Source: a virus. From it: DNA of 64,000 nucleotides. Every line of letters begins with the position of its first letter. Within the stretch, counting starts at the first letter, position 1. This document shows positions 1,086 to 27,960 of this stretch, in pieces. The notes beneath the pieces were generated by a model, which was given only the letters and a program-made list of their open reading frames with translations, searched no databases and was not told the DNA's origin. The stretch covers positions 1 to 64,000 of the IMG/VR virus record IMGVR_UViG_3300046535_001869, one strand, 5' to 3'. A program made the translations under genes and the position numbers.

Positions 1086-1445
1086 ATGTTCCTTCGCGTC
1101 CTCGCGATCCTTCTCCTGACGGCGCTGCCGCTCTACGCTCAGACCGTGACCCCGCGGGCCTGCGGCGGTGCGACGAGCGTTACGACCGGCGGAGCTGCGG
1201 TCGTCGCGCTGACAGGTAAGGTCAACGGATACTACATCGTCAACCCGCTGAGCGCGACGGACCAGGGGATCGGCGCGGTTGAGCCGCTCTATATCGACAC
1301 GACGACGACAGCCACGACGACGGCGAGTGGTACTAACGCCGCGCTTGCTCCCGGGCAGCCGTTTGGCGGGATCTTTGGATCGACTACCAATGTTAGCGTC
1401 AACGCCGCGACGTCTGGCCATAATTTCACGTGCGTCAGGTGGTAA
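1086..1445 (+). CDS. Small secreted protein with signal peptide
   Basis: 119 residues. The N-terminus MFLRVLAILLLTALPLYAQT is a clear Sec signal peptide with a likely cut after LYA. The mature part is Thr/Ala/Gly-rich, with Cys residues near both ends that could form a disulfide (RACGG and FTCVRW). It ends close to the start of the next gene, in the same operon. No family recognised. It resembles the small decoration or fibre-associated proteins that follow it. Confidence 0.55.
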   Translation: MFLRVLAILLLTALPLYAQTVTPRACGGATSVTTGGAAVVALTGKVNGYYIVNPLSATDQGIGAVEPLYIDTTTTATTTASGTNAALAPGQPFGGIFGSTTNVSVNAATSGHNFTCVRW

Positions 1446-1450
1446 GGACG

Positions 1451-3412
1451 ATGAAGGGTATCATTGCTGCTACCCTCGCCGCGTGCTTGACTGCCAGTGC
1501 GGCCCACGCCCAGTGGCAGAACGCCGGTCCTGGTTCGGTCGGGACGACCGCGCCGGCCTCGACGGCGACCGCTGGTGTCGCGAAGTGCGACGGTGTCACG
1601 ACGACCTGCGCCGCAGATGGGACAATCACTGCGACGACCGGCGGGACGGCCGGTATCAACCAGTTGACCGGTGACGGTACCGCTGGACCGGCGTCCGGTT
1701 CGGCCGCTATTACGGTCTCGAAGATCGGCGGCAAGGCGTTGACCCTAGGTGGCGCGCTGACGACGACCGGCGGCGCGAGCGGTACGACCCTCGCGTTTCC
1801 GACCACGGGCACGTTCACGTTCCCTGCTGCCTCTGCGACCCTAGCCTCGTTAGCCGGATCCGAGGTCCTGACCAATAAGACGATAAACTGCGCTGACAAC
1901 ACCTGTACGGTACGGATCGGTTCCGACGTAAGCGGCCTGGGGACCAACGTTGCGACCGCGCTAGCGGTCAACGTTGGTACCGCTGGCGCTTTTCTGAAGA
2001 ACAACGGCGACGCGCTCAGCGGTACCTATAGTGGTAATTTTACGTTATCTGGCACGCCGACCATGACCGGCTTAGGTGCCGGCACAATCGCAGAATGCGC
2101 GGGGTTTGCGACCGCCAGCAATGTCATGATTCGCGCCGCGTGTTCGGGTGGTGGCGGCAGCGGCACGGTGACGAGCGTTACTCTCGGCGTACCGGCGTCC
2201 TCGATCTTCGGGACCAGCGGGACGAACCCCGTCACGACCTCTGGCACCTTCAACATAACGACGACCGGTAGCTCTGGGGGGATCCCCTACTTTTCCTCGG
2301 GGACGCAGCTTAGCAGCTCGGCAGCCCTACCCGCGGGGCAGATAGTTCTCGGCGGCGGTGCGGGCGCCGCACCGAACGCCATGTCAGCGATAAGCGGAGA
2401 CGGTTCGTTAGATACCTCAACCGGGATCGTCACCATTACGAGTACCAATGGCACGCCGTTCGCGGCCTCAGCGACGCTCGATACCACCAACGCCACGAAT
2501 ATCGGAAGCGGAACGCTCGACGGTGCGCGGCTCCCCAATACCGTCAACCAGTGCCCCTCGGACATCGACACCTGGAATGGTGTTTTGGACAAGACGATCA
2601 GCTCCACGGTCGGGTTTGTCTATACGACCGGCTCGACCCAGATCGCAGCCCCCAGGACCTTGACGTTGCCAATCGTAGCTGGGCACGGGATTTCAACTTG
2701 TCCGCTGGTCTTTATGGACCTTGCGAGGATCGTCAACAGCACGGGCACTGTTGTCCCGACGCGCCAGTCCACCGATACGATCGACGGAAACACGACCGGA
2801 ACAACGATGGCATGCGCGGGGCAAACCTCGGCGTGGACAGCGCCGGTGGCGGCGTCATGGGGGACCGTTGCGCCGCCGACGCTGTGCAGCGACACGGTGG
2901 TTACCGGTCAGTACCTTACTGTCATCAACGATAATGGGACCGTCGGCCGGGCTCAGGTGAATTTCAACCAACTCGCGGGTACGGCGACCGGAGCGCAGCT
3001 CCCGGCGGCGACCACCTCGACACAGGGCGCGGCGCTCTTACACAACGTGCCGTTCTCGATGGGCTGGAACAGCGCGACGAACCCGGACGGCAACTTCGTG
3101 GCGGTGGTAACGCAGGCGAGCCGGATAACCGCGATCAAGGGCCGGATAGGGCCGGCGGTCGGAGCGACGGCGGCGATTACGGTTAAGAAGGCCGCCAGTG
3201 CTGTTGATTGCGCGGCCTCGGGAACGCCGCTCCATACCGGCACCTTTGACGCTAACGGAACGGCGAATACAGTGCAAACGCTGACCCTGGTTGGCGGCGC
3301 AACGGACGATCTGGCCGTTAACGACACGGTATGCTTCTCGACGGCAAACGGGGCGGCGTTCCTCGCCGGGGTCGGCAAGGGCGTCATCTCAATCGATTGG
3401 GCGCCGCTATGA
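1451..3412 (+). CDS. Tail fibre-like protein with signal peptide
   Basis: 653 residues from ATG 1451, chosen because AAGGA precedes it and the protein then opens with a textbook signal peptide (MKGIIAATLAACLTASAAHAQ). An in-frame start at 1430 would only add seven residues. The body holds motifs common in phage tail fibres: a LTLGGALTTTGGASGT stretch with SEVLTNKTI (about 105-150), and GTVTSVTLGVPASSIF followed by TTSGTFNITTTG (about 235-280). These are usual in trimeric fibre shafts. The C-terminal part has paired Cys residues. A fibre with an export signal is odd, because virion proteins are normally assembled in the cytoplasm. Confidence 0.65.
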   Translation: MKGIIAATLAACLTASAAHAQWQNAGPGSVGTTAPASTATAGVAKCDGVTTTCAADGTITATTGGTAGINQLTGDGTAGPASGSAAITVSKIGGKALTLGGALTTTGGASGTTLAFPTTGTFTFPAASATLASLAGSEVLTNKTINCADNTCTVRIGSDVSGLGTNVATALAVNVGTAGAFLKNNGDALSGTYSGNFTLSGTPTMTGLGAGTIAECAGFATASNVMIRAACSGGGGSGTVTSVTLGVPASSIFGTSGTNPVTTSGTFNITTTGSSGGIPYFSSGTQLSSSAALPAGQIVLGGGAGAAPNAMSAISGDGSLDTSTGIVTITSTNGTPFAASATLDTTNATNIGSGTLDGARLPNTVNQCPSDIDTWNGVLDKTISSTVGFVYTTGSTQIAAPRTLTLPIVAGHGISTCPLVFMDLARIVNSTGTVVPTRQSTDTIDGNTTGTTMACAGQTSAWTAPVAASWGTVAPPTLCSDTVVTGQYLTVINDNGTVGRAQVNFNQLAGTATGAQLPAATTSTQGAALLHNVPFSMGWNSATNPDGNFVAVVTQASRITAIKGRIGPAVGATAAITVKKAASAVDCAASGTPLHTGTFDANGTANTVQTLTLVGGATDDLAVNDTVCFSTANGAAFLAGVGKGVISIDWAPL

Positions 3413-3597
3413 CCCGGGTCTTGCTGGTGCTGGGGTTGCTGGTGCTGGGGGCAGCTTCCGCCCATGCGTGGCTTATTCAAAGCTCTGGTGGCTCGGCACC
3501 GCCGTCTTGCAACGCGGTCATTACCGGGAGCGGCGCGGACGGCAACGCGATCTTGACGGGATCGGCGACGGCGCTGGGAAACCTGACGTGCCAATAG
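3409..3597 (+). CDS. 62-residue secreted protein
   Basis: Starts at ATG 3409, overlapping the previous stop (ATGA). MTRVLLVLGLLVLGAASAHA is a signal peptide encoded by a direct repeat (TTGCTGGTGCTGGGG twice). The mature part is about 42 residues with two Cys. The coupling to its neighbour and the clean signal peptide support a real gene. Function unknown. Confidence 0.5.
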   Translation: MTRVLLVLGLLVLGAASAHAWLIQSSGGSAPPSCNAVITGSGADGNAILTGSATALGNLTCQ

Positions 3598-3607
3598 GAG
3601 ACGTGCT

Positions 3608-4237
3608 GTGAACTTGAAAAAGCTACTGTCCGGCACGCTCGCGGTAACGCTTGCCGCTTATGGCGTGGCCTGGGCGGCGACGCAAACGCTGACCCTCGGG
3701 GCAAGCACCGGGCCGGGCGGTATCCTCACCCTGTTCGGCTCGACATCGGGAAGTTTCTTTCTTCAGCCGCCGGCTGCAGCCGGGACTGCGTCGGGGTGGA
3801 CTGTCCCATCGGGCGTAACGGACTTTAGCGGGACAAGCGGGTTCCTTCAACAGGCGACGACGGGTGCTGCAATTACCGCAGCGGCCATCACAGCAGCCCA
3901 AGTGCCGGCGACGCCGCTCGTGGCGGGGACGGGAGCGGCGCTGGTCGGGCCGAGAGAGTATTACGTCTGCACCGGCACCTGCACGCCGACGCCCCCCGTG
4001 CCGGTCGCGGGGTACGAGTTCTGTATCTACAACGACAACAATGTGGCGACGGCAATCACGCTTCAGGCATTGGGCTCGAGCGCGATGTATGAGAACTCGG
4101 CCCGGACAGCCTACGGTACGGCGGGAACCGGGACGCTGGCGCTGAGCGCAGCGGCGGCGAACAAGGTGTGCATCGTCGGCCGTGACGCTACGCACTATTC
4201 AACGGTCTCGTACAACGGCACGGTCACGGTGAACTAA
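3608..4237 (+). CDS. Secreted structural-like protein
   Basis: 209 residues from GTG 3608, which has GGAG nine bases upstream. The N-terminus MNLKKLLSGTLAVTLAAYGVAWA is a Sec signal peptide. The mature part is rich in Gly, Thr and Ala and carries a YYVCTGTCTPTPP segment and a FCIYNDNN segment (about 118-145), which suggest a disulfide-stabilised beta sandwich. It lies tightly packed in the cassette of secreted fibre-like genes. No family recognised. Confidence 0.55.
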   Translation: MNLKKLLSGTLAVTLAAYGVAWAATQTLTLGASTGPGGILTLFGSTSGSFFLQPPAAAGTASGWTVPSGVTDFSGTSGFLQQATTGAAITAAAITAAQVPATPLVAGTGAALVGPREYYVCTGTCTPTPPVPVAGYEFCIYNDNNVATAITLQALGSSAMYENSARTAYGTAGTGTLALSAAAANKVCIVGRDATHYSTVSYNGTVTVN

Positions 4238-4238
4238 G

Positions 4239-5117
4239 ATGTGGCGGTTTTTAACCGTAGCGCTCGCGTTGTGGAGCGCCTCCGCGCAGGCGCAGATGCT
4301 GAAAACCATCGTCGCTGGGAATAACCCGGTGGCGGCAGCCTATGCCGGCCCTGGCGACGTGGTGGCGAGCGCGACCGGATGGTGGGGTCTGCGGGGCTAC
4401 TCGGCGGCGGTCGCTGCCACGGGCACACAGAAATCAGTCACCATCCGTCGGGCGAGCGACGATGCGACCGCTGATATCGTGATCCTGACGACGGGCTATC
4501 TCGATGTGGCAACGGCGACGACGCACTGCGCCGCGACAACCTGCTTCGTGACGAAATTCTGGGATCAGAGCGGCAACAGCCGGGACATCTCGCAAGCAAC
4601 TGGCGCAAACCAGGCGCAGATTTTCCTGAGCGGCGGTCCGGCGGCGGGTTATCCGTATGTGGCCTTTACGGCTGGGACGAATTCTTACGCCGGGGCCGCG
4701 AACTTCACCCCGACGACAGGGGTCGAGTCGTTCAGCGCCGTTGCAAACAGGTCCACCGGCACGGGCCTGGTAAAGATGGTTCGGGGCGGCGGTGGCAATG
4801 AGTTTGACGGCAAGAGCGCCAGCGCGAACAACTGGATATTGACCGGAAACGCCAGTTCGATCACCGCCGCCGCCAACGATGCGACTTGGCATGCCGGCAG
4901 CGCGTTGCTGAACGGGGCAAGCTCGGCCGTTAACATCGACAACTCGGAGACGACCGGGACCGTGACGGGATTCACGACGGCGGCGGCCTACGGCATCATC
5001 GGGGCAAACAGCACGACGATGAAGATTGTCGAAAGCGGGTTCTGGTACAACATCACCTTCACTTCTCAAAACCGGACGGATTTGAGCGCGCAGCAGCACA
5101 GTGCATGGGGATTCTGA
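4239..5117 (+). CDS. Secreted lectin / arabinofuranosidase-B-like protein
   Basis: 292 residues with signal peptide MWRFLTVALALWSASAQAQ. Residues about 45-130 follow the pattern seen in arabinofuranosidase-B catalytic-type (concanavalin-like) domains: a GYSAA segment, then SVTIRRASDDATADI, then FVTKFWDQSGNSRDISQAT and an NQAQI strand. Such domains bind or cleave polysaccharide. The catalytic residues cannot be confirmed by eye, so it may be a carbohydrate-binding protein only. It starts one base after the previous stop and is coupled to the next gene. It is a candidate depolymerase or receptor-binding protein. Confidence 0.55.
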   Translation: MWRFLTVALALWSASAQAQMLKTIVAGNNPVAAAYAGPGDVVASATGWWGLRGYSAAVAATGTQKSVTIRRASDDATADIVILTTGYLDVATATTHCAATTCFVTKFWDQSGNSRDISQATGANQAQIFLSGGPAAGYPYVAFTAGTNSYAGAANFTPTTGVESFSAVANRSTGTGLVKMVRGGGGNEFDGKSASANNWILTGNASSITAAANDATWHAGSALLNGASSAVNIDNSETTGTVTGFTTAAAYGIIGANSTTMKIVESGFWYNITFTSQNRTDLSAQQHSAWGF

Positions 5118-5323
5118 TGAATATTTGGGAGCGGCACGATGCACGCCGGCTGATCAAGGAACGGCACGAGGCGGTCTGTAAAGACCCCTCGGGGTTCTGG
5201 GTTGTTCTGACTGTGGTGCTGGCAATTGGTGTGGCCGCTACGCTCATAGGCAGGTCAACGCCTCAGACATGTGTCCCGTGGGCGGGCGATGTGGCGACAC
5301 TGTTTTCGCAACTAAGGTGCTAA
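5117..5323 (+). CDS. Single-pass membrane protein with WxGxVxTLFxxLxC tail
   Basis: 68 residues from ATG 5117, which overlaps the previous stop as TGATG. Residues about 28-46 form one membrane helix (FWVVLTVVLAIGVAATLIG). The last 14 residues WAGDVATLFSQLRC match the end of the minus-strand protein at 42227-42538 (WDGNVETLFATLGC). The two also share the order membrane helix, then Cys, then this tail. They look like distant paralogs. The orientation of the helix and the function are unknown. Confidence 0.5.
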   Translation: MNIWERHDARRLIKERHEAVCKDPSGFWVVLTVVLAIGVAATLIGRSTPQTCVPWAGDVATLFSQLRC

Positions 5324-5327
5324 GATC

Positions 5328-8300
5328 GTGAGGCGAACCCGGCGAAGCATCCTGGCCGGCCTTGCCGCAAGCGTGCCGGGAATGGCATGGGCGGCGCGTC
5401 GCAGCAAGATTCCAACCGGGCCGCCGTCGATACCGCCGCAGATCGTCTCGGTCACGCCGACGACAGGCGGTTTCCTGGGCGGGACGGGATCGGCAAACAC
5501 ACCGATCATGACGATGATCGCCACAATGAGTCCGATGGTGCCGGCGTTCACGGGCACTTGGTCGATAACTGGGCCAGACGCATCTCTATTCGTGATCGAC
5601 GTCTCGACCGGGGTCTTGAGCGTCGGCGCGGTCGACGTAGCGGTGGGCACCTATAACCTTAGCGCCGTCGCTACCCAGGTCGGAGCAACCGGCTCGCCCT
5701 TTACCCAAGCTATCTCTGTCGTCGGCAGCGCGGGGGAATTGCTCGCGACGATGACGCTGGTGAACACTTCAGCCACGGTGGCTCAGCCGTCAGGGTTCGT
5801 CACGCCGATGTTTGGCTGGAATTTCCACAAGGGCCATATCCCGAGCGGGACGGCACCGACGTTCAAGAACGGTTCCCTGCCACAGCCATATTCGTGGGGT
5901 TGTCAATCCTATTGGAGCGACGGCAGCCTCAAGAACGCCTCGTTCATGATGATTTGCCTGGGCTCAACCGTCCCGGCCGGCGGCTCGATCGCGATTGGCG
6001 TGTGGAGCGGCGGCACGGCGCCGACGACGAGCGCAAGAACAGCGGCAGAAGTCTATACCGAGGCGATTCAGGTCAACCTTGTCGGACAGGGTTCGACCTT
6101 TGGACTGACCGGAACCTGGGGTGCGTGGCTGACGAGCGATGTCAACAACGCGGAGCAATTCGTCTATCTCGACGGTGACGCCGGAAAGGTCTGGCGGTTT
6201 CTGACGCATGTCGCCCCGACGCAGGGCGGGACGAAGCATGGCCAGATGGAGTGCTACCATTACGTCGCCGCGCTGACCAACGATACCGGCGGCCTCGGCG
6301 GGTTCCGCTATCTGCCGTGCCTGGCTCAGCCGTGGTATGACGTAAACAGCCCAGCCAAGGCATCCCGATCCTTCTCGACGATCAATTGGCAGCACGGGGC
6401 GGGTCCGACGACGGTGCCTTACCCGCTCTACTACACGCCGCAGACCTGGACCCAGCCGCTGACGACGCATGCGCTATCGACCGTCGTCTTTACCGGCGGT
6501 TCGCTCGCCAGCCTGACTTTCTCGGGCGGCGTCGTAACCGCGACGACCGTCCTACCGCACGGATTGAGCGGCGTGACGAGGATGGGGATCGCCGGGGTCA
6601 CGCCGAGTAACTATAACGGCAGTTTTGCTTGCACGGTCACGGGGGCGTCCACCTTTACCTATCCGATCAGTTCGTCGCCGACATCGCCCGCAACGATCCC
6701 TGGAACCTATGGATTTGTGACCGCCACGGCCGCAGCACCGCACGGGTTTGGCATCGCTACCACGAAGGCGCTGGCTATCCAGGGAAATACCCCGTCCGGG
6801 TACGATACCACCGCGATTACCTGCACGGTCACGACGACGACCGCCTTTAATTATCCGCTCGGGGTCAATCCCGGCACGAACACGGTTGCGGGCACCTATT
6901 TCCTCAACACGACCACGGTCACATCGGCGGGCGCAACGACGGCCTTCTACACGGGCGATGCAGCCAATCAGTTCTGCATCCCGGTGCGAGTGTCCTCGTC
7001 AGGCACCCTGCCGCCACCACTCGACGCTAACACGCTGTATTCCTGCCGGGGCACGAAGACCGGGACGACAACGGTCAACTTCACCACGGTCGCGAGCACG
7101 GCCGGGTCGCCGCTCACGATGACCGGACCCGGTTCCGGCACGCTCACGATTACGCCGCTGCCAACCCTCTATCACTTCGGTCGGATGTTCATGCCGACGA
7201 CAGATGCAAGGTGGAACTTCTTTCAAGGCGCAGGGTCGTACACGGCCGAGCCGACAATCAGGACCGTGATCGACCGGGCGTACTGGAACGGCGATTCGAC
7301 CAACAAGCTGAGCCTGATCAACCCGTGGGACATGACGCTAACTGGGGTTGTCAACTATGCGGCGGACTTCTCCTGGGCGCCTCAGTCCATCGGGAAGCTC
7401 TACTCCGCTCGATCGAGCGGCGGTGGAACGGACGGACGGCTGGACCTCGGCGCGATGACCGGCTATCAGGGAAGCGATTTCTTCAATCAGAGCGCTGCCA
7501 GCGATACGCTCAACCGGATACACGGATTTGCGGCGGCCCTCGATCACCGCTGTTTCCGAAATTCGACGAACGGAAACTGCGTCAACCTTCGTGGTTCGGG
7601 CCACCCGCATACCGGGATGACGGCAAATTCGACGATCCGGTACGTGGCGGATCATTTCAATTCAAATACCGGGTTTACCAGCCCACCGACGGCCAATACC
7701 AACGAGGTATTTGACCAGTCGAACAACACCCACTCCCCGGCCTTTACTTATTGGCCGTTCCTGCGAACCGGCGAGCCGCAGTTTCTCGACATGCTTCTCG
7801 AATGGGGGATCGGCGCAATCCTCGATTGCGACCCGAATTCACGAAACACGTTAGCAGGACAGCCGGCGGCATACACGGCCGTTGGTATCTTCTCTGGATC
7901 GGGCGGCGAGCGCCAGGTTGCTTGGGGCAATCGCGGGGTTCACACCGCAGCCGCCGTCTGCCCGTTGGTAATGCCGGACAGCTCGGACATACACGGCTGC
8001 CTGAGCGGCATGTCCGACGATACCTGCGCCGTATCGCTGGCGGTGTATACGTCCAACATCCTGGGGACATACGCATCGACCAACGGCCTGTTTGGGCCTT
8101 ACGGAGGCCCGGCGACCGGCGGCCCGACAATCTATCAAGACAGCTTTCAAAGCACCTATACCCGGATGGCGATGTGTCTCGCGGCTGGCGCTCGTGAGAA
8201 TCCGGACGCCCTGGTAATCTTGCAGAAGATGGCCGATTGGCACGCCTACCTCGTCAGCAAGTTCGGGTACTATTACACGACGGGGTATTTCAACAAGACG

Positions 8301-8903
8301 GGGATGGCAAACACCGACATCAATGTCGGCTGGCCGGCGATCTCGGTTGACGAGCAGTACGCGACAACGACGCCGTTTGTGGCCTCATGGACGACCAGTT
8401 CACCAAACTGGACGCTGGTGCGAGCGACGGCGGGAAACGGTGCCGTAGTCAGGGACGGCGATCGATTCATGTTCGAGAAGAACCCTCCGTTGCCGCCGCC
8501 AATCTCGGTCACGCTGAACTCACCGACCAACTACCTGCGGGATACGCCGTATTACGCCATCAACACAATAGCCGTAAACGCCACGACCTATACCTGCAAC
8601 ATGACGACAGTGCTCGGTAGCGCAGGCAATATTCTCGTCCCGGCCGCCCCCGGCAGCGGCGGGGCCAACGCCACCTATCATTGGTATGTTGGTCAGGACG
8701 TAGCGCCTGCGATTGGTGCGGAGAATACCGGCTATCAGAACCAGGGTTCCTATATGTCATGGAAGCGTTCATCGCATCTGTGGATGAAGGCGCTTGGAAT
8801 CACTGGGCTTGACGCGGCGATCACCGACGCAGGGTTAAGGTTCGACCATGCAGGGTTCTTGGCGGTCGTGCGCGGTGCGTTTCAGGACCATTTCGGCGCG
8901 TGA
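5328..8903 (+). CDS. Large secreted tail spike-like protein
   Basis: 1191 residues from GTG 5328. The start reads MRRTRRSILAGLAASVPGMAWA, a signal peptide of twin-arginine type or an Arg-rich Sec signal. Residues about 60-135 look like a cadherin/Ig-type repeat (TWSITGPDASLFVIDVSTG). A following region with YWSDGSLKNASFMM and PAGGSIAIGVWSGG resembles the N-terminal domain of exo-acting rhamnogalacturonan lyase-like proteins. Residues about 398-525 hold two tandem copies of a repeat of about 62 residues with TATT..PHG and TPS.Y motifs (FCCH-like). The C-terminal 500 residues look like a helical-barrel hydrolase or lyase domain. It is the main candidate capsule or LPS depolymerase of the cassette. 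Its stop overlaps the next gene. Confidence 0.55.
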   Translation: MRRTRRSILAGLAASVPGMAWAARRSKIPTGPPSIPPQIVSVTPTTGGFLGGTGSANTPIMTMIATMSPMVPAFTGTWSITGPDASLFVIDVSTGVLSVGAVDVAVGTYNLSAVATQVGATGSPFTQAISVVGSAGELLATMTLVNTSATVAQPSGFVTPMFGWNFHKGHIPSGTAPTFKNGSLPQPYSWGCQSYWSDGSLKNASFMMICLGSTVPAGGSIAIGVWSGGTAPTTSARTAAEVYTEAIQVNLVGQGSTFGLTGTWGAWLTSDVNNAEQFVYLDGDAGKVWRFLTHVAPTQGGTKHGQMECYHYVAALTNDTGGLGGFRYLPCLAQPWYDVNSPAKASRSFSTINWQHGAGPTTVPYPLYYTPQTWTQPLTTHALSTVVFTGGSLASLTFSGGVVTATTVLPHGLSGVTRMGIAGVTPSNYNGSFACTVTGASTFTYPISSSPTSPATIPGTYGFVTATAAAPHGFGIATTKALAIQGNTPSGYDTTAITCTVTTTTAFNYPLGVNPGTNTVAGTYFLNTTTVTSAGATTAFYTGDAANQFCIPVRVSSSGTLPPPLDANTLYSCRGTKTGTTTVNFTTVASTAGSPLTMTGPGSGTLTITPLPTLYHFGRMFMPTTDARWNFFQGAGSYTAEPTIRTVIDRAYWNGDSTNKLSLINPWDMTLTGVVNYAADFSWAPQSIGKLYSARSSGGGTDGRLDLGAMTGYQGSDFFNQSAASDTLNRIHGFAAALDHRCFRNSTNGNCVNLRGSGHPHTGMTANSTIRYVADHFNSNTGFTSPPTANTNEVFDQSNNTHSPAFTYWPFLRTGEPQFLDMLLEWGIGAILDCDPNSRNTLAGQPAAYTAVGIFSGSGGERQVAWGNRGVHTAAAVCPLVMPDSSDIHGCLSGMSDDTCAVSLAVYTSNILGTYASTNGLFGPYGGPATGGPTIYQDSFQSTYTRMAMCLAAGARENPDALVILQKMADWHAYLVSKFGYYYTTGYFNKTGMANTDINVGWPAISVDEQYATTTPFVASWTTSSPNWTLVRATAGNGAVVRDGDRFMFEKNPPLPPPISVTLNSPTNYLRDTPYYAINTIAVNATTYTCNMTTVLGSAGNILVPAAPGSGGANATYHWYVGQDVAPAIGAENTGYQNQGSYMSWKRSSHLWMKALGITGLDAAITDAGLRFDHAGFLAVVRGAFQDHFGA

Positions 8904-9295
8904 ACCTCCACGCTATAGCCAGCCCGTACGTCGCGGCGATCAATCCGATGCTCCCGGTCTCGGTTCGCGTCAGCACCGGGTACTCGACCGGAGCCGACGG
9001 CTCGCGGATGCCGAGCTACGCTGCGCCGGTCGCGATGCTAGGCCAGGTCCAGCGCATGTCGTCGCGCGACCTGCGGCAGGTATCTGGGTTGAATTTACAA
9101 GGTACCATATCCGCGATCTACCTCGGCGGGGATATCGAGGGCGTCCAGCGCCCGCTGGTCAAGGGCGGCGACCTGATCACGTACCCGGACGGGACGGTGT
9201 GGCTCGTTGTGCTCTCGCTGGAAAGCTGGGGCGCGGTCGGCTCGCCCCAGGAGATGTGGTGCAAGGTCGCTGTGAATCTTCAGAACGGGTCCTGA
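8900..9295 (+). CDS. Conserved tail/connector protein
   Basis: 131 residues from a GTG overlapping the previous stop. The segment LGQVQRMSSRDLRQVSGLNLQG, then AIYLGGDIEGVQRP, then KGGDLITYPDGTVWLVV and WCKVAVNLQN, matches a small conserved protein found just before the neck terminator in temperate myophage tail modules. A role in joining tail to head is likely from its place and conservation; its biochemistry is not known to me. Confidence 0.55.
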   Translation: MNLHAIASPYVAAINPMLPVSVRVSTGYSTGADGSRMPSYAAPVAMLGQVQRMSSRDLRQVSGLNLQGTISAIYLGGDIEGVQRPLVKGGDLITYPDGTVWLVVLSLESWGAVGSPQEMWCKVAVNLQNGS

Positions 9296-9296
9296 G

Positions 9297-11028: not shown

Positions 11029-11062
11029 AGTCTACTTTTCTCCGAAATGGAGTAAACCTTAA

Positions 11063-12817: not shown

Positions 12818-12850
12818 ATAGCGCGTCGAGACAAGGAGCCTTGAAATCCA

Positions 12851-13655: not shown

Positions 13656-13664
13656 CCCCTTACC

Positions 13665-16181: not shown

Positions 16182-16182
16182 G

Positions 16183-19083: not shown

Positions 19084-19520
19084 ACACCCTGCTTCTCAGC
19101 GCCCCGAGCGAGGATGTCCCGTCAGGCTGGGACCTACAGCTCGACACGGCCGGCAACCTGGCCGTTGCGACCGGCCACTACGCCATAGCCCAGGACGTCG
19201 CCTCGGCCGTGCGGACGTTCCTAGGCGAAGAATGGTATAATACGACGTCTGGCGTGCCGTATCTTGAGCAGATCCTTGGTCAGCGCCCACCGCTCCAGTT
19301 CCTCAAGGCCCAGTTCGTCGCGGCTGGGATGACCGTGCCCGGCGTGGCCGGCATTACCTGCTTCCTGACTGGCCCAGGCCTCAACCGCGAGGTTGGTGGC
19401 CAGCTCCAGATCACTAACGACGTGGACAACCTCTTGACCGTGATCGAGTCGACGACGATTCTCGCGCCCGGGGTATCGCCCTGGTATGTTGTTAGCGTTG
19501 GACCGGAGGACCTTGGCTGA
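19080..19520 (+). CDS. Baseplate wedge protein (gpW/gp25-like)
   Basis: 146 residues. WDLQLDTAGNLAVATGHYAI, then AQDVASAVRTFLGEEWYNT and TSGVPYLEQILGQRP match the gp25/gpW baseplate wedge family, which connects hub and wedges and starts sheath assembly. It overlaps the spike stop and the start of the gpJ-like gene. Confidence 0.7.
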   Translation: MNTLLLSAPSEDVPSGWDLQLDTAGNLAVATGHYAIAQDVASAVRTFLGEEWYNTTSGVPYLEQILGQRPPLQFLKAQFVAAGMTVPGVAGITCFLTGPGLNREVGGQLQITNDVDNLLTVIESTTILAPGVSPWYVVSVGPEDLG

Positions 19521-21016
19521 TGCCCACTAACGTCCCGAAGCCGGTCTTCGGCGATAAGGGATTCGTCGGGCCATCGGAGTCAGCGATCCTCGCCGGTGTC
19601 CAGGCCGACATCAACTTGGCGCTCGGTGGCAACGTCAACCCAAGGCTGAATACGCCGCAGGGACAGATCGCGACCACCGAGACGGCGGTCATCGGTGATA
19701 GTAATGCAACATTCCTGTATTTTTCCTCACAAGTTGACCCGGCGTTCAGCTCCGGACGGATGCAGGATGCGATCGGAAGAATTTATTTTCAGACCCGCAT
19801 CCCCGGCGCGCCGACCACGGTCCAGGCGACGTGCCGCGGCCTGACCGACGTGCCGATCCCGGTGGGAGCGCTGGCCCGCGCCACCGACGGAAACATCTAC
19901 ATCTGCCAGGCTGCCGGGACGATCGGCCTCGCCGGCACGGTGGTTCTCCCGTTCGCCTGCATCCAGAACGGCCCGATCCCGGCGCCGGTAGCCTCGGTCA
20001 ACCAGGTCTACCAGGCGATCCCTGGATGGGATTCGATCACCAACACCGAGGACGGCGTCCTCGGGCGGAACGTTGAGAGCCGCTCGGAGTTCGAGGCGCG
20101 TCGCGCGGCCTCGGTCGCGGCCAACGCGCGCGGCATCCTCGACTCGATCCAGGGCGCGGTGCTCGCGGTCCCCGGCGTCGTCGACGCGCTGGTCATCGAC
20201 AATCCTCTGGATACGCCAGTCGTGATCTACGGCTACTTCCGCTTCGGCGAGACCGGCCAGCTCTCGGGGTTCAACGACCAGCCGTTCTACACAGGTCAGC
20301 CGGCGCTGTACCTGGGTCCACACTCGCTCTACGTCTGCGCCCTCGGCGGGACCGATCAGGCCGTCGGAGAGGCGATCTGGACCAAGAAGGCGCCGGGTTG
20401 CGGCTACAACGGCAACACGACGGTCATCGTGGTCGACCCGAGCCCGGACTATAGCCCACCCGTCCCGACCTACTACGTCACATTCGAGCGTCCGATCGTC
20501 GAGGACTTCACGGTCCAGGTCACGCTTCAGAACAGCACTACGGTCCCGTCGGATGCGCTGGCCCAGATCCAGAACGCGGTGATCAACGCTTTCGCCGGAG
20601 CCGACGGCGGCTCGCGCGCCCGGATCGGCGGGACGGTGCTGGCCTCGCGCTACTACGGTCCTGTCGCGCTGCTCGGTTCATGGGCGCAGATCATCAGTAT
20701 CAAGGTCGGTCTTACCGGGCAGGTGGCGGTCTTCACGGGCTCGATCACCGGGACCGTTCTGACGGTCAGCGCCATGAACATAGGCACGATCGAGGCGGGC
20801 CAGTTGCTCCAGGATGCTGGCCTGATGGCCTCGGGGACGACCGTCGTCGACCAGCTCACCGGCACCACGGGCGGGATCGGGACCTACACCGTGTCGGTCG
20901 ACCAGACGATCCCGTCGGAGGCGATGAACTGTACCGACCTCCTCGACGACGTCGCGCTGAACATCAACCAGGTCCCGGCCATCTCGGCCGGTGAGATCCA
21001 CCTGACGCTGGTATGA
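19520..21016 (+). CDS. Baseplate J-like protein with inserted module
   Basis: 498 residues. RSEFEARRAASVAANARGIL and DSIQGAVLAVPGVVDALVID (about 187-227) are the core of baseplate J proteins (P2 gpJ / T4 gp6 family), which form the outer baseplate ring. The C-terminal part fits too (TVQVTLQNSTTVPSDALAQI, then NAFAG). Residues about 402-464 are the inserted module shared with neck, sheath and plug. The end (VPAISAGEIHLTLV) resumes the family. Confidence 0.75.
   Translation: MPTNVPKPVFGDKGFVGPSESAILAGVQADINLALGGNVNPRLNTPQGQIATTETAVIGDSNATFLYFSSQVDPAFSSGRMQDAIGRIYFQTRIPGAPTTVQATCRGLTDVPIPVGALARATDGNIYICQAAGTIGLAGTVVLPFACIQNGPIPAPVASVNQVYQAIPGWDSITNTEDGVLGRNVESRSEFEARRAASVAANARGILDSIQGAVLAVPGVVDALVIDNPLDTPVVIYGYFRFGETGQLSGFNDQPFYTGQPALYLGPHSLYVCALGGTDQAVGEAIWTKKAPGCGYNGNTTVIVVDPSPDYSPPVPTYYVTFERPIVEDFTVQVTLQNSTTVPSDALAQIQNAVINAFAGADGGSRARIGGTVLASRYYGPVALLGSWAQIISIKVGLTGQVAVFTGSITGTVLTVSAMNIGTIEAGQLLQDAGLMASGTTVVDQLTGTTGGIGTYTVSVDQTIPSEAMNCTDLLDDVALNINQVPAISAGEIHLTLV
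20723..20911 (+). repeat. Inserted GTY module, copy 4 (in gpJ-like protein)
   Basis: Encodes residues 402-464: opening VAVFTGSITGTVLTVSAMNI, then GTIEAGQLLQDAGLMASGTT, closing QLTGTTGGIGTYTVSVDQ. It lies near the C-terminus, just before the normal end of the family. Confidence 0.7.
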
Positions 21017-21020
21017 CGCG

Positions 21021-21701
21021 ATGAGAACGTGGCCTCAAACGGTCCTTAGCCAATACTCCGACAGCCCGCGCCTGATGGCGCTGCTGGAGGACATTGACGA
21101 ATGGATCAGTCCGGACGCCAATATGGAGGCGTTCTATGAGCTGATCTGGAATATCCGTCGGGAGGGCGGCGCCGCGGGTTACGGCCTCGATGTGTGGGGA
21201 CGGATCGTCAACGTCAGTCGTGTTGTCTCGATGACGACCTTTGGCCCGTCGTTCGGCTTCGGAGAGGCCGGCGATCGGACCGGGTTCGATCAGGCGAACT
21301 TCTACGTCGGCGATCGCTCGACGATGAACTTTACGCTGACCGACGAGGTCTACCGGATTCTGATCTTTGCCAGAGCTGCACTGAATATCACGGACTGCTC
21401 GATCCCGGCGATCAATGCGATCATGCGGGGCCTCTTCCCCGGGCGGGGTAACGCCTTCGTTACGGACGGCGCCAACGGTCCGGTGGCCTCGTGCTTTGGA
21501 TTCGCCGAGGCGGGCGACCGGACCGGGTTCGACCAGGGCACGTTCCAGGACGATCAGATACCCGCCTCGCCGCGTCCGATGCACATCATTTACAACTTCG
21601 AGTTTGCCCTACAGCCGTTCGAGATCGCCATCGTGACAAACTCCGGGGTCCTGCCGCGCCCGGTCGGGGTGGCCGCGACGGCGAGCTATGAGGTAATCTG
21701 A
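21021..21701 (+). CDS. Tail protein of DUF2612 type (gpI position)
   Basis: 226 residues. YSDSPRLMALLEDIDEWISP, then NIRREGGAAGYGLDVWGRIV and INAIMRGLFPGRGNAFVTD fit DUF2612 proteins that take the place of P2 gpI and join fibres to the baseplate. A motif of about 17 residues occurs twice: FGFGEAGDRTGFDQANF (about 74-90) and FGFAEAGDRTGFDQGTF (about 158-174). It lies directly upstream of the spike genes. Confidence 0.65.
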   Translation: MRTWPQTVLSQYSDSPRLMALLEDIDEWISPDANMEAFYELIWNIRREGGAAGYGLDVWGRIVNVSRVVSMTTFGPSFGFGEAGDRTGFDQANFYVGDRSTMNFTLTDEVYRILIFARAALNITDCSIPAINAIMRGLFPGRGNAFVTDGANGPVASCFGFAEAGDRTGFDQGTFQDDQIPASPRPMHIIYNFEFALQPFEIAIVTNSGVLPRPVGVAATASYEVI

Positions 21702-24113
21702 ATGCGCAGATCCTTGCCGTTTGTCCTAGCTGCGGTCCTCCTTCTGCCTCGCCCGTCCGCTGTATGGGCCGAGACTACCTCTGACTTCATCTCTGGGTCG
21801 CCGCTCGCGACGAGTCCGATCCCTTCTACCGCCAAGATCCCGGTGGTCGAGGGGGCTACGCCAGGCGCGCTGATGCATGAGGTCCCGGTATCGTCGTTTC
21901 CTACCTATATGGGGCAACTCAAGGCGATTACACCGCAGCAGTATGGCGCCGTCGGTAATGGGTCGGCTGATGATACGGCAGCGGTGCAGGCTTGGTTCAC
22001 CGCACTAAAGACGGGCAATTATCTCGGATACTGCAACGGTGTCTTTCGGCTGACCGGAAGCGTCAATGCCTCCCCCACAAAATCGTACCGCGTAGAAGGA
22101 TCGTTTGCGGCGGTAAGCTCCACTTCTGGGACCGGCTGTAAATTCTACGTTGACTATAACAACTGGGCTAGTGCGGCGATAGACCTAACAACTCCGTCTA
22201 ACCCAACGACCAGCAACCGGGGTCGCGAGACGTGGTGGAGCAACGTTTCGATTATATATAATCCGGCATTGACAGCGCCTCCGGTCGGCTTTCGGCACAG
22301 ATATTCCTCGGCTCTTAATCTTGAAAACTTCTCGATCCTGCAATACACGGTCAATCGCGGGACGTGCCTGTCGATCAGCAGCGCATTTAATGATCGCCTG
22401 AAGGACAATGTGCAGATATGGGGATGCGGCGGAAACGTGCCGGCGCATCTGCGGCCAGCCGGGATCACGTTTTCGATCACGGCAGCGGCAACTACCCTGA
22501 CATCGAGCGCTACGTTCTTCTCTGCTGCCGATGTTGGTCAGGACATCGTGATCCTCGGGTCGCCTCTATATGAGGCGTTCCACATTGCGTCGTTTACGAA
22601 TACGACCACGGTCGAGGTTACTCGCGCGGCGACGAACACCCATACGGCGCAACTGGGAGCGGTCTCGGCGATCACCGGGGCGATGACCGCCGGCAGCCCA
22701 ACGCTGACGATCAACGTCGCCAACTTGTCGTCGAGTGACGTTGGTAGAAACGTCTACGTGCTCGGCTGCGGCTCGACAGACGGGACATCAATCGGGGCGC
22801 TGCGCTCGACGATCTCGGCCGTCAGTGGGGCCACGGTTACGCTCGCCGATAATGCCCTGACGAACTGCGCCGCCGGTGCGTCGATTATCATCGGCCCGGC
22901 CGTTGAGATTTACGCGGACGCGGACGGAACGATTAACAACGACGTTTCCTTGATTGGGTTGCACGAGGAGCAGAACTCCGGGACGGCGCTCGTTGTCGCG
23001 AACGCGGTCAACTTGCGCGGGACGATGCTCAAACTGCATTCGTGGAACAACGCGAATATCGGCGAGACAGCCTACGAGTCGCAGTTCAACGGGGTCTTTG
23101 TTAGAACTGACCTGGAACTGGGGCAGGCCGACATCGAGGGAACCTCAATAACGACGCTGGGGCAGATACTCCTTCAGGGCATCAATGCGGGCGGCAACAC
23201 GATCGGGATGCTCGATGGCTTCGCGATCACCGGGCAGCCGAAGGTCGCAATCTCCAACATCGCTGCGAACAACGGAGTCACGGTCGGCACGATCAACACG
23301 CCGCACCAATTAGCGTCAACCTGGGTTCCATCTCTTGTGACCTCAGACGGAACGGGGCGTGGGTTGCTCGCCCAGGGCGCGGTGACGACGCAGCTTACGC
23401 CAGCCCAGCTCCCGAAGCTGATCGCAACGACCACCAACGACAACGCCTGTGATGGCTGCGTTGGCCAGATGATCAGCAATGGGTCGGGGAGCGAGACTGC
23501 CACCGTTACCTTTACGGCGGCCACCCCTTCCGTGATTACGTGGACCTCACATGAACTCTCGCAGAGCAATCCGTCTATCCTTTATTTTACTTCCACTATG
23601 GCAGTGCCGACCGGCTTTACCGCTGACACGAACTATTGGACGGTGCCGGGGACGATCACGAACAACACATTCTCGGTTGCACCGACGCTGGCCGATGCAC
23701 TGGCCGGGACAAACCTTGTGGCGGCATCTGATACTGGGACAGGCGTGCAGACGGGGACTCGTTTGGGCTATTTGCCAGACAATACGCCGCTGAGCATCCT
23801 CGCCGTCACGCTGCCCGCCGGTGATTGGGACTGCTGGGGAGGCGCACGGTTTCTGCCTGCTGCGTCCACGACCCAATCTTTTAACGGCGTTGGCATCGCC
23901 CCGACCATCGATTATCTCGGGACGGTTGATCAAAGCAACGGGACGATGGAGACGTACACTGCTTATGCCGCAGGGAAGGCTGTCCAGTATCCAACCGGCC
24001 TGAGTTGGCGACGGCTTGCGACACAAACGGTCGTCTATCTTACGGCGCAGGCCGACTTTGCGGTCGATGTCGAGCGGGTTGCTGGTCGGATAGACTGCCG
24101 CCGGGCACGCTAA
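21702..24113 (+). CDS. Tail spike with pectate-lyase-like beta helix and signal peptide
   Basis: 803 residues. The N-terminus MRRSLPFVLAAVLLLPRPSA is a signal peptide (cut near VWA). QYGAVGNGSADDTAAVQAWF (about 80-99) is the entry motif of pectate-lyase-type right-handed beta helices found in phage tail spikes. Two loops with repeated ITxAxTTLT / ITGAMTAGSPTLTI segments (about 255-375) resemble modules common in spike proteins. The C-terminal domain is beta-rich and Thr-rich. Likely a polysaccharide-degrading or binding spike. The presence of a signal peptide on a spike is unusual. Confidence 0.65.
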   Translation: MRRSLPFVLAAVLLLPRPSAVWAETTSDFISGSPLATSPIPSTAKIPVVEGATPGALMHEVPVSSFPTYMGQLKAITPQQYGAVGNGSADDTAAVQAWFTALKTGNYLGYCNGVFRLTGSVNASPTKSYRVEGSFAAVSSTSGTGCKFYVDYNNWASAAIDLTTPSNPTTSNRGRETWWSNVSIIYNPALTAPPVGFRHRYSSALNLENFSILQYTVNRGTCLSISSAFNDRLKDNVQIWGCGGNVPAHLRPAGITFSITAAATTLTSSATFFSAADVGQDIVILGSPLYEAFHIASFTNTTTVEVTRAATNTHTAQLGAVSAITGAMTAGSPTLTINVANLSSSDVGRNVYVLGCGSTDGTSIGALRSTISAVSGATVTLADNALTNCAAGASIIIGPAVEIYADADGTINNDVSLIGLHEEQNSGTALVVANAVNLRGTMLKLHSWNNANIGETAYESQFNGVFVRTDLELGQADIEGTSITTLGQILLQGINAGGNTIGMLDGFAITGQPKVAISNIAANNGVTVGTINTPHQLASTWVPSLVTSDGTGRGLLAQGAVTTQLTPAQLPKLIATTTNDNACDGCVGQMISNGSGSETATVTFTAATPSVITWTSHELSQSNPSILYFTSTMAVPTGFTADTNYWTVPGTITNNTFSVAPTLADALAGTNLVAASDTGTGVQTGTRLGYLPDNTPLSILAVTLPAGDWDCWGGARFLPAASTTQSFNGVGIAPTIDYLGTVDQSNGTMETYTAYAAGKAVQYPTGLSWRRLATQTVVYLTAQADFAVDVERVAGRIDCRRAR

Positions 24114-24139: not shown

Positions 24140-25339
24140 GTGCAGGACAGCAACACACCCGCCAAGATCCCTCTCCCCTGGGCGTCGAGCGCGGGCGGCG
24201 GGTACATCGAGGTGATCCCGACCGCGTCCCAGATCGGGATCACCCCGGGACGCGCCTCGTTCACCGACGGCTTCGTTCCGCTGAACTTCGTGCCGCTGGC
24301 CTCCGGCGGCGTCGGGCCGCTCGGCAAGGACTTCAACGGCATCCTCAACCAGGTCACGGCCGGGCTGCAGTGGCAGCAGGCAGGTGGTCCGATTCTCTAC
24401 GACGCGGCGTTCTCCTCGGCGATCGGTGGATACCCGGCCGGCGCGGTCATCGCCAAGGCGGGGATGGGCGGGCGATTCTGGTATTCGCTGGTCGACAACA
24501 ACGTTACGAACCCGGACGCGGCCGGCGCGGGGTGGATCGGGCTCGGCCTCCAGACGTTCGTCGATACACCGACGACGTACTACGTCGACTTCTCGACCGG
24601 CAGCGACTCGACCGGGACGGGGTTGATCTCGGCTCCGTGGAAGACGCTCCAGTACGCTTTCGACTACCTGAACACCCATGTCGTCGCTTCAGGCGTCGCG
24701 GTTACCATCTCCCAGAACGGGCCGGTAGATGGGCCGCACACCGATACGACCGGGCTGATTATCGCGAATGCGATCAACGGCGCGTCAATCCTCAACGTCG
24801 TGATCAATGGCGCGATCCTGACCAGCGCCGCAGCTGGGATCTTCGTGACGAACGGTGGCGTGGTTCAGATCAGCGGCAGTGGCAGCATCCGCGGTGCGAG
24901 CTACGACGTCGTTAGCACAGGAAACTCAGTCGTCCAGTATCAGGGGGCCACCCCCGGGGCATGTGCACTTGTGAAACTGCTAGCCCAGTTCGGTGCGACG
25001 CTTCGGATCACCGGAGACTACACGGACTCGGGAAACTCTGGTCATCACTGGTTCGCGGACTTCGGTGGTCTAATCAGTGTCGACCGCGGGACCGGCGTCG
25101 CGTCTACGATCACGACCTCGGGTACGCCGGCTTACGGAGTCGCCTTCGCCGACGCGTCGAGCGGGAGCATCATCCGCTGCACGACCGCGCTCACGGTCTT
25201 TGCCGGAACGGGAGCGACCGGAACGCGGTACCTCGTCGACAAGACCAGTGGGATCGATACTGGAGGTGGTGGTTCGACGTTCATCCCAGGCAGTGTCGGG
25301 GGGACGGCCGACGCGGCGACCTTCGGCTGGTACGCGTGA
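24140..25339 (+). CDS. Tail fibre / spike with phage N-terminal attachment domain
   Basis: 399 residues from GTG 24140, preceded by TTGAGGAG. The N-terminus (IPLPWASSAGGGYIEVIPTA, then SQIGITPGRASFTDGFVPL and GPLGKDFNGILNQVTAG) is a well-conserved attachment domain of phage fibres. From about residue 147 a parallel beta helix follows (YYVDFSTGSDSTGTGLI, with PWKTLQYAFDYLN). Unlike its neighbours it has no signal peptide, as expected for a virion fibre. This makes it the best candidate for the true receptor-binding fibre. Confidence 0.65.
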   Translation: MQDSNTPAKIPLPWASSAGGGYIEVIPTASQIGITPGRASFTDGFVPLNFVPLASGGVGPLGKDFNGILNQVTAGLQWQQAGGPILYDAAFSSAIGGYPAGAVIAKAGMGGRFWYSLVDNNVTNPDAAGAGWIGLGLQTFVDTPTTYYVDFSTGSDSTGTGLISAPWKTLQYAFDYLNTHVVASGVAVTISQNGPVDGPHTDTTGLIIANAINGASILNVVINGAILTSAAAGIFVTNGGVVQISGSGSIRGASYDVVSTGNSVVQYQGATPGACALVKLLAQFGATLRITGDYTDSGNSGHHWFADFGGLISVDRGTGVASTITTSGTPAYGVAFADASSGSIIRCTTALTVFAGTGATGTRYLVDKTSGIDTGGGGSTFIPGSVGGTADAATFGWYA

Positions 25340-27960
25340 TGCGCCGCCTTCTGGTCGTCCTCGCGCTCCTGCTGGCGGCGTCGGGCGCCGAGGCCCAGAC
25401 CTGCCCGGTGACCCAGTCGACGCCCGCGCTGACCGCCGGGGGCAACGTTTTCGGGCGCATCGCGTCGCAGTGGAACTCGTACTTTGGCGCGAAGGTCGAC
25501 GCGAACAACGGGAGCCTTTGCAATCCGACGATAAACGGACAGGCCGCGTTCCCGGACCTCCCCAACGGCGAGCTCCTCGGCGCGTTCGGCGGCCACCTGG
25601 TACCGGTGACCGTGGGATCGCACCTGGTCCTCACGGGGAGTATCCTGTCGGCCGATCCCGCGGCGGTCTATGGGCCAGCCAGCGCCGTGTTGAACGAGAT
25701 CGCGACCTACGCCGACACCACGGGCAAACTGATCAAAGGAACCGGCGCAGCATATTTAGACGCGGCCGGACTGAACATCGGCATCGGAGTCGCAGCACAG
25801 GCCAACGTGCCGGGCTATGCAATGGAGGTCCAACAGAAGAGCATCGGGCTCACCGGGTTCAGCTCGACGGCAGCTTTCTTTCACAACGATTTCACGGGCT
25901 CCGATGCAAACGCGAACGTCAACGGCTCGTATAGCGATCTGTGGTACGAGGGGACGACGGCGGGCAACCAGGGGTTTGGGAGCAGAAACAGTGCCTTTAC
26001 CTACACGGCCGGGTCTCCGCTTGGTAGTTTGCCGCACCAGTACTTCAACTCTCCCAATATCGGCACACTGACTTATCTGGCCGGGGTCTACGGGCGTACC
26101 GCGCACTACCTTCCGGGCACCATCACCTATGCCGCCTCGGTCTTGGCGGACGGCATCTACAACATCTCGACTCCGGTCGGCGGCGCGGTCTCAAACTTTT
26201 CCAATTTTCTGGCAATTCCTCCTTATGCGGCCGCTAGTCTCAATTATGCCTTCTTGATCCCCGCCGCTACGTGTAGCCCGAATTGCTATGATATCACATT
26301 TCGTACACTCGGAGACCCGCTGACCTTTGGGACCGCTGGCGGGGCGGGCTTGGCGGTTCTTGATCCAGGCGCGACGATAGCAAATTATACTGCGATATAC
26401 GGCGCCGCTACGGGCGCGGGGCCGACAATTCGGGCGCAGGGTACAGATCCAAACCCAGATATCACCGTGGGCGCCAAGGGCACGGGTAGCGTCATACTTC
26501 AGAGCAACAGCCTCAACTCGGCGACATTTTCGGCACCCGCAGGTGGGGTCAACAATTTCTCCTTCCTTGGGTCGATCAGTGGCTCGTCGCTCTCGATCGG
26601 CGCGGCCGGCTCGGATACCGATATCCGTATTGCGGTTCTACCAAAAGGAGCGGGATCATTCGACGTTTTCTCGCCAGCCAACGTATATAACAACATCGCC
26701 TCCGGCATCACGGCGGACGGCGCGACGCTGACGGCCCAGAGCGACGCGACGACGGCCCACTACGTCTACACCTGCGCGATCGGGACCTGCAACGGCACGG
26801 CGCCGATCTACGATGCCGTGCGCGGGGTCATGAATTCGCTCGCTGGTCAGGGCTCGGATACGTTCACGAACGCGGTCAGCGGTTACGTTATCGAGCGCAC
26901 CGGCAGGTCCGGGCCGCCCTATGGGTCGTTTCCGGTCAGCGCGGCGTTCAACGCGATTGGCATCTGTGCGGCGGACGGGTGCGGCGTCTGGGGCTTCAAC
27001 TCGATCTTGACGGATAACGAGGGGCAGAGCGTCAGCTCCCACGGAGCGCGGTTCCTATTCAATGAATACGACTTCAACGTCACGTCGCCAAACACAACGG
27101 TCTCTGCGCTGAACATCGGCGGGACCTGGCTGTCCCAGCCGCTCGCCGCCTTCGGCCCGTCGATCCTGGCGCCGAGCGGCGAGGTGGTGATCTCGACCAA
27201 CAACACGACGGCCTCAGGAAACAACACGCTCCACTTCGCCTCGACGACCGGCGTGGTCGACGGGCGAAAGATCCAGACGGCCAATGTAATGGCCGGGACG
27301 ACCGTTTCGTCCCATACCAGCACGACGGTAGTAATGAGCGCCAACGCAACCGGGTCTGGCGTGGCGAGTTCGCAGGCCGTCTACTTCGAACCAGGGTTCA
27401 TCTGGAACTGGGGTTGGGGGACGACGGATAACTGCTGCTTGACGGCGTTCCACGTCGGCGCCGCCGCGGCAGCTGGTGCGAGCGTTGCGAGCCAGAACGT
27501 CGACATGCTGTGGTTTGACGCGAGCGGCGTCCAGAAGACGACGACGCTGGCCGCCACGGCTACCGGCCTGAACCTGGCGAGCAGCGGTAGCAGCGGCTCG
27601 CTCGCCATCAACCTCCTTGGCGCCGGGACCTTCCGGACCGGGGACGGAGGTGGCTTGTCGATCAACGGATTGGCGGTGGCGTCCGGCAGCGGAACCACGC
27701 TAAGCCTGGGTTCCGATGCCGGGTGGACTACCGCGATCGGTGTCGGAAATACGGTCGCGCCCCTGAACCTTCACGGAACTTCTGTAGCCGTCGACAACGG
27801 TCTGCGTACCAGCACGGCTATCGATAAGGGCGCCGGTTCGGTGAACTCGCTGACCTACTGGGCCGACGGAACGCAGGGCATCGCCTCCTGCTCGGTCGTA
27901 ACGGCGGCGGCGACGATCACGATCAAGGCTGGCTTGGTCGTTGGAATGACGGGGTGTTAG
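25339..27960 (+). CDS. Large fibre-like protein with signal peptide
   Basis: 873 residues from ATG 25339, which overlaps the previous stop (TGATG). A longer in-frame extension upstream runs antiphase through the preceding fibre gene and is rejected. It opens with signal peptide MRRLLVVLALLLAASGAEAQ. A segment near 535-600 (AAGSDTDIRIAVLPKGAGSF) and one near 625-680 (NNTTASGNNTLHFASTTGVV, VSSHTSTTVVMSANATGSGV) match modules common in phage fibre shafts. The protein is Gly/Ser/Thr-rich throughout. It ends two bases before the next ATG. Confidence 0.6.
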   Translation: MRRLLVVLALLLAASGAEAQTCPVTQSTPALTAGGNVFGRIASQWNSYFGAKVDANNGSLCNPTINGQAAFPDLPNGELLGAFGGHLVPVTVGSHLVLTGSILSADPAAVYGPASAVLNEIATYADTTGKLIKGTGAAYLDAAGLNIGIGVAAQANVPGYAMEVQQKSIGLTGFSSTAAFFHNDFTGSDANANVNGSYSDLWYEGTTAGNQGFGSRNSAFTYTAGSPLGSLPHQYFNSPNIGTLTYLAGVYGRTAHYLPGTITYAASVLADGIYNISTPVGGAVSNFSNFLAIPPYAAASLNYAFLIPAATCSPNCYDITFRTLGDPLTFGTAGGAGLAVLDPGATIANYTAIYGAATGAGPTIRAQGTDPNPDITVGAKGTGSVILQSNSLNSATFSAPAGGVNNFSFLGSISGSSLSIGAAGSDTDIRIAVLPKGAGSFDVFSPANVYNNIASGITADGATLTAQSDATTAHYVYTCAIGTCNGTAPIYDAVRGVMNSLAGQGSDTFTNAVSGYVIERTGRSGPPYGSFPVSAAFNAIGICAADGCGVWGFNSILTDNEGQSVSSHGARFLFNEYDFNVTSPNTTVSALNIGGTWLSQPLAAFGPSILAPSGEVVISTNNTTASGNNTLHFASTTGVVDGRKIQTANVMAGTTVSSHTSTTVVMSANATGSGVASSQAVYFEPGFIWNWGWGTTDNCCLTAFHVGAAAAAGASVASQNVDMLWFDASGVQKTTTLAATATGLNLASSGSSGSLAINLLGAGTFRTGDGGGLSINGLAVASGSGTTLSLGSDAGWTTAIGVGNTVAPLNLHGTSVAVDNGLRTSTAIDKGAGSVNSLTYWADGTQGIASCSVVTAAATITIKAGLVVGMTGC

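Follow-up and report, generated by a model that had tools for sequence, protein, structure and literature searches.

Predicted signal peptides on fibre- and spike-like proteins of a myophage late operon, and a possible route for exported fibres onto the virion

The stretch of DNA analysed here (hereafter ‘the window’) comprises positions 1–64,000 of a 109,299-bp virus record in IMG/VR (IMGVR_UViG_3300046535_001869); our subject is a set of its plus-strand genes whose products, several of them resembling tail fibres and spikes, begin with a predicted signal peptide (SP). An earlier note on this DNA had claimed that at least eight late proteins start in this way, and all eight (at 1086, 1451, 3409, 3608, 4239, 5328, 21702 and 25339) are called by our rule-based scorer of n-, h- and c-regions, as is a further gene at 27962; a probable lipoprotein at 28210 extends the list. 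The genes fall into two groups: one to the left (1086–8899), between gene 148 and the neck gene at 8900, and one to the right (21702, 25339, 27962 and 28210), following the genes for the baseplate. The genes here are tightly packed, overlapping or abutting one another, with ATGA overlaps at 3409 and 25339; the SP genes thus look to be co-transcribed with those of the virion, and their products are to be expected alongside it.

Taking the left group in order, the gene at 1086–1445 encodes an 18-residue SP (cut between PLYA and QTV) and a mature protein of 101 residues; that at 1451–3412, whose ATG start lies within a longer GTG-started frame (1430), encodes a 20-residue SP and a fibre-shaft-like protein of 633 residues, with short matches to the SP fibres of relatives L199 and L109. 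There follow a product of just 62 amino acids in total (3409–3597; 20-residue SP, 42-residue mature peptide); a 23-residue SP in front of a stand-alone C-terminal domain (3608–4237), which matches the end of the L199 SP fibre at 44% over 112 amino acids; and an 18-residue SP in front of a lectin-like protein (4239–5117), which matches Pfam ArabFuran-catal (3e-9) and the virion structural protein family phrog_10356, and is homologous to an SP gene found just downstream of the same L199 fibre. The matches of 3608, 1451 and 4239 to this one locus indicate that the left cassette consists in part of split-off pieces of SP fibres. Phmmer comparison with solved structures produced weak matches of 4239 to arabinofuranosidase B, and nothing useful besides. 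Beyond a 68-residue protein with a single predicted transmembrane segment (5117–5323), the gene at 5328–8903 encodes a Tat-like signal (TRRSILAG...AWA) and a protein of 1169 residues to which no fold could be assigned, its AlphaFold model (pLDDT 30) being unusable. The earlier note had labelled the signals ‘Sec-type’; this holds for the SPs in general but apparently not for that of 5328, with its twin-arginine motif (TRRSILAG) in the n-region, a call which is also the least certain, being made on a single sequence with a GTG start where the gene caller began the gene at an internal ATG (5382) instead. Searches of phages with the 1430 and 5328 proteins, and of plasmids with the 25339 and 5328 proteins, gave no match.

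Immediately to the left of this group lies a conserved gene of unassigned function (148–1071), 58–60% identical to genes of L007 and L095. In these two relatives (54% and 58% sheath identity, respectively) the homologues of 148 and 8900 are directly adjacent, from which it follows that 1086–8899 is an extra cassette. SP genes upstream of the sheath or J gene, as in this cassette, are also seen in other phages (L029:6026–9591, L116:8584 and L123:3784), where a role in head or neck decoration is possible.

The right group opens with a 23-residue SP and a beta-helix (pectate-lyase-like) tailspike protein (21702–24113), the pectate-lyase-like stretch of which matches phrog_32881 weakly (6e-4). Alongside it is the canonical tail fibre (24140–25339; two cysteines) which, just as the earlier note had it, lacks an SP and carries a normal baseplate-attachment domain (phrog_12796, 1e-31). 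No second attachment domain occurs in the 109-kb record, and the fibre is surrounded by the right SP group; none of the window’s SP proteins carries a known domain of this kind. At 25339–27960, a 19-residue SP (cut between AEA and QTC) precedes a fibre of what we term the QWNSYF type, related to gp51 of Burkholderia phage Bcep1; within the window, homology to fibre and tailspike domains is strongest for this protein and weak for 21702. Single-protein scans of viral contigs found no relative of 25339 and one partial relative of 21702. The group is completed by a short protein (27962–28213; an 83-residue open reading frame with a 20-residue SP according to the scorer) and the probable lipoprotein (28210–29040; lipobox LLFLAAC), recognised by eye, as was an Rz1-like lipoprotein at 31836.

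The scorer recognises 16 of 17 well-known Escherichia coli signal peptides, and a score of at least 30 was set as the threshold for estimating chance level. The record’s 78 minus-strand genes all fall below it, whilst residue-shuffled N-termini are called at a rate of 0.4–0.9% and internal-methionine fragments at 0.4%; with these controls, chance hydrophobic N-termini are ruled out. The scorer did give false positives (tape measures, neck proteins and spanins), to which many of the cases with an odd number of cysteines belong. The n-h-c organisation and A-X-A cleavage site of the signals are those of proteins exported by Sec and processed by signal peptidase I (SPase I).

Around 155 related viral loci were gathered, anchored on wedge J and sheath. 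In those with J, and counting proteins of at least 150 amino acids, an SP is called in 13 of 376 proteins up to and including J versus 53 of 280 downstream. The fibre at 25339 belongs to a recurrent family, the main group of which has the mature N-terminus QSSPGxxxGQVPTAAQWNSYFAxKQD, and an SP is present in 48 of the 51 stretches with the QWNSYF motif. Across 44 unique members, the n-region is basic and the hydrophobic core without conserved letters; A is found at position –3 in 32 and A, G or S at –1 in 43, with strict conservation beginning at +1, directly past the cleavage site. A conserved A-X-A followed by a mature motif that is invariant from +1 onwards argues for a signal peptide that is cleaved.

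In 40 of 48 loci these fibres lie no more than 8 kb from a canonical attachment fibre, at a median of 1.4 kb downstream; two Hyphomicrobiales genomes also have an SP fibre near a canonical one, and in a second tail lineage (L200, L207 and L218) the family directly follows gpJ. Their location is therefore that of tail fibres, in the baseplate and fibre cluster of a contractile-tail phage, and the C-terminal domains of SP fibres find matches in cultured phages, among virion fibres and tailspikes that have no signal. As judged from the genes, an export signal on fibre and spike proteins is common to many related phages and not the quirk of one genome; dozens of phages and prophages would appear to have working signal peptides on their fibre genes.

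Cysteine parity provides an independent test of export. In a set of SP proteins of at least 150 amino acids, to which the 119-residue window protein 1086 was added (zero cysteines being counted as even), the mature part holds an even number in 121 of 142 cases (84 of 96 cluster representatives; p about 9e-15), as compared with about 42–43% of other proteins in the same phages and 33% of signal-less attachment-domain fibres. With the signal included, parity drops to just 69%, and where an SP itself holds an odd number of cysteines the mature part behind it is even in 28 of 31 cases, indicating that the folded protein does not include the signal peptide. Cysteine content is also raised about twofold (1.11%, versus 0.55–0.59% in others). 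Members of the QWNSYF family divide into 38 even and four odd, whereas the signal-less ones (L198, L221 and L027 twice) hold 5, 5, 3 and 0 cysteines. Two further proteins, from G727, hold 8 and 6. In the window all eight SP proteins are even, with 2, 12, 2, 4, 2, 16, 10 and 12 mature cysteines for 1086, 1451, 3409, 3608, 4239, 5328, 21702 and 25339, respectively. By way of comparison, even counts have been reported for approximately 64% of exported mycobacterial proteins (PMC12421883; for the tendency in periplasm-folding proteins see also PMC10235803). Agrobacterium phage 7-7-1 (L234, L233), for its part, has virion proteins proven by mass spectrometry that are cysteine-rich without an SP (gp7 with 17 cysteines, gp8 with 14), and is a counter-example to ‘cysteine-rich means exported’. 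Taking the conserved SPase I site together with the parity of mature parts, we consider it highly probable that the SP proteins are exported, cleaved and disulfide-folded.

Where the exported proteins end up is a separate matter. Tailed-phage fibres are taken to be cytoplasmic, and the earlier note was right to see a conflict between signal peptides and cytoplasmic assembly; its premise, that export removes fibres from virions, is however weakened by what we find in related phages. With a profile made for the 24140-type attachment domain, 132 such fibres were recovered, six of them with an SP in front. These come from five records (L035, L110 (= L209), L126, L174 and L194), in each of which no attachment domain other than that of the tagged fibre was found; this domain is well conserved, the SP directly precedes it, and the SP starts at or beside the stop of the preceding gene. 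Between SP and domain there is no start codon in L035, L126 and L174; L110 has just one, inside the SP; in L194 a methionine codon falls exactly at the start of the domain, as though a fibre once made in the cytoplasm had acquired the SP. On a tree of the attachment domain the five tagged fibres require four changes, at least three of them on well-supported branches. Where a phage exports its sole baseplate fibre, that fibre has either to dock afterwards or to be dispensed with. This, combined with a signal-less QWNSYF fibre in the equivalent position of the tail cluster (L198), argues that export need not remove fibres from the virion; the conserved N-terminus and variable C-terminus of QWNSYF fibres, the usual layout of a virion-docking module, appear to point the same way.

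In the explanation we favour, the late operon encodes a class of exported proteins (tail fibres, spikes and small accessories) that use Sec or, for 5328, a Tat-like route. Signal peptidase I cleaves off the SP, exposing the conserved, docking-like N-terminus of QWNSYF members; the fibres would fold and trimerise in the oxidising periplasm late in infection; and, once holin, endolysin and spanin had opened the cell, this N-terminus would let them dock on baseplates or on the cytoplasmic first fibre, such that the phage would finish its adsorption apparatus only with lysis or later. The window’s fibres or spikes of this kind would be 25339, 21702 and 1451, with 3608 and 4239 as separate tip or lectin modules. 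We regard the final step, docking of exported fibres on virions at lysis, as evenly poised; the scheme in full, i.e. a widespread group of tailed phages with Sec/Tat export, a docking N-terminus exposed by cleavage, Dsb-made disulfides and fibre attachment only at lysis, is put forward tentatively, as falling a little short of an even chance.

Several points count against this explanation. The five records with tagged attachment fibres are mostly contig fragments, from which a second fibre could be missing; the window’s own canonical fibre (24140) is without an SP, so that its virion might need none of the exported proteins to be complete; the small products of 1086, 3409 and 27962 do not have to belong to the virion; parity is an indicator of oxidising export, not of destination; and the SP members are known from their genes alone, the docking partner of the QWNSYF fibres being hypothetical. 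The virion proteins of phage 7-7-1 identified by mass spectrometry include no convincing SP protein, and are uninformative on docking.

The alternative that survives best, a reasonable possibility though in our estimation not the likelier outcome, is that the exported proteins stay free, reusing fibre modules as late extracellular or periplasmic depolymerases, lectins, decoys, surface adhesins or superinfection blockers. Here too export is real, as parity and cleavage site indicate; a tailspike/pectate-lyase-type domain occurs among the SP proteins and a carbohydrate-binding-like one at 4239, several of the small proteins have no shaft, tip domains are found standing alone, and the sugar-nucleotide-type genes of the phage amount to an investment in surface chemistry. 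Less easily accommodated are the retention of an SP-preceded attachment domain in five records where no second fibre of this type was found, the docking-type layout of conserved N-terminus and variable C-termini, and the locking of SP genes to the tail cluster, where L198 has its signal-less version in the same place.

That the fibres are cytoplasmic virion parts, export being incidental to a weak or leaky signal or bypassed by an internal start yielding a cytoplasmic form, strikes us as unlikely. The methionine at the start of the L194 domain and the internal ATG chosen by the gene caller for 5328 would both suit it, but cysteine pairing in mature parts, lost in signal-less relatives, argues that the functional pool is oxidised, and the start-codon positions in L035, L126, L174 and L110 offer it no help. 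Membrane targeting only, an option raised in the earlier note, is disfavoured by the conserved SPase I sites and by a parity that resides in the mature, not the full-length, protein. We likewise give very little credence to uncleaved inner-membrane anchors involved in lysis or membrane-linked assembly: the segments are indeed hydrophobic with positive N-termini, and true lysis lipoproteins lie nearby (31836), but nearly all QWNSYF members have A-X-A at –3/–1 with the mature motif right after it, and odd cysteines within the SP stand outside the parity (28/31). Host-derived secreted adhesins carried as cargo without relation to the tail would fit the lack of the 1086–8899 block at the corresponding position of L007 and L095, but can be set aside as most improbable, given that the N- and C-terminal modules are those of phage fibres and that bacterial genomes seldom hold the family (1 of 369 and 4 of 398 in two sets, both strong matches in the second also holding a phage attachment fibre).

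Should exported fibres join virions, as we favour, there would be an assembly step outside the cytoplasm, permitting disulfide-hardened adhesins and entailing dependence on host Sec and Dsb, and co-infecting phages could swap fibres in the lysate; should they never do so, these phages would release a large secreted arsenal of adhesins and depolymerases.

As regards the rest of the record, a gene for an HK97-gp10-like protein is apparently split across its two ends, and the genome is thus probably near complete and circularly permuted. The phage is a myophage with a Bcep781/Naesvirus-type tail module, in which a DUF3383-type sheath, J, a gpI-like protein and the attachment fibre appear in order; to judge by sequence, its relation to Bcep781-like phages is at the level of this module only, the genome being 109 kb. 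Neck, sheath (11063), tube (12851), tape measure (14382), hub (17453), wedge J (19520) and gpI-like (21021) genes occupy 8900–21701 on the plus strand, all without an SP. Both the sheath (11063–12817) and wedge J (19520–21016) carry an insertion of a short, repeat-like beta domain (GTVLTVSAM..GTIEAGQLL..GTGGIGTYTVS), which is missing from the sheath and J of most aligned relatives; stretches of similar appearance occur in two other structural proteins, at 9297–10319 and 16749–17456, and phrog_38233 and phrog_21413 also match the inserted domain. On the minus strand, 43625–57387 holds sugar-pathway-type genes (NAD-dependent epimerase, nucleotidyltransferase, GHMP kinase, B12/radical-SAM, DegT aminotransferase and transketolase-like), a set which suggests phage-driven modification of surface sugar or nucleotides. 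A response-regulator receiver domain protein (29472–29903) sits amid late and lysis genes.

Turning to known systems, the canonical Bcep781-type fibre (phrog_12796) has in common with 24140 and the five SP-tagged fibres its attachment domain, but is normally signal-less, cysteine-poor and without bias towards even cysteine counts. Bor is a phage late-region gene with a signal peptide and an exported product. Lambda Lom resembles the SP fibres in the same respects (PMC12309495), but differs in being a membrane beta-barrel of the host outer membrane with neither a fibre module nor a domain for docking in the tail cluster; the window’s SP genes, with fibre and spike modules in a late tail operon and only 28210 lipoprotein-like, do not appear to belong with this lysogenic-conversion class of beta-barrels or lipoproteins that lysogens express and place in the host envelope. 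One study took the lack of signal peptides as a sign of phage origin for phage-encoded binding proteins (PMC6199706), and our literature search found no report of exported tail fibres, the annotation of Bcep1 gp51 being the only published hint to emerge from it. Another system is the cultured Shewanella phage vB_Sb_QDWS (OK094664), which has an SP on a beta-helix tailspike with eight cysteines, downstream of gpJ, a gpI-like gene and a fibre; unlike 25339, this protein is of a tailspike family and not QWNSYF. In the deposited annotation this tailspike (L235:7001–9061) starts 268 codons late, leaving the SP unrecorded, with an opposite-strand gene annotated partly over the missing part, an example of how annotation pipelines can mis-start SP fibre genes. 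Related to 25339 is gp51 of Burkholderia phages Bcep1 and BcepNY3 (Naesvirus; NC_005263, EF602154), annotated as ‘possible tail fiber; possible signal peptide domain’: Bcep1 gp51 has a clear SP, a fibre-type mature N-terminus (FAPGQILTAAQLNAAFAN..GGTLTGPL) and four mature cysteines, and is 37% identical to 25339 over 145 amino acids. In the stretch of Bcep1 consulted, a single SP fibre gene is annotated, elsewhere in the genome and with no mechanism given, whereas the window has eight or more SP genes and a cassette dedicated to them.

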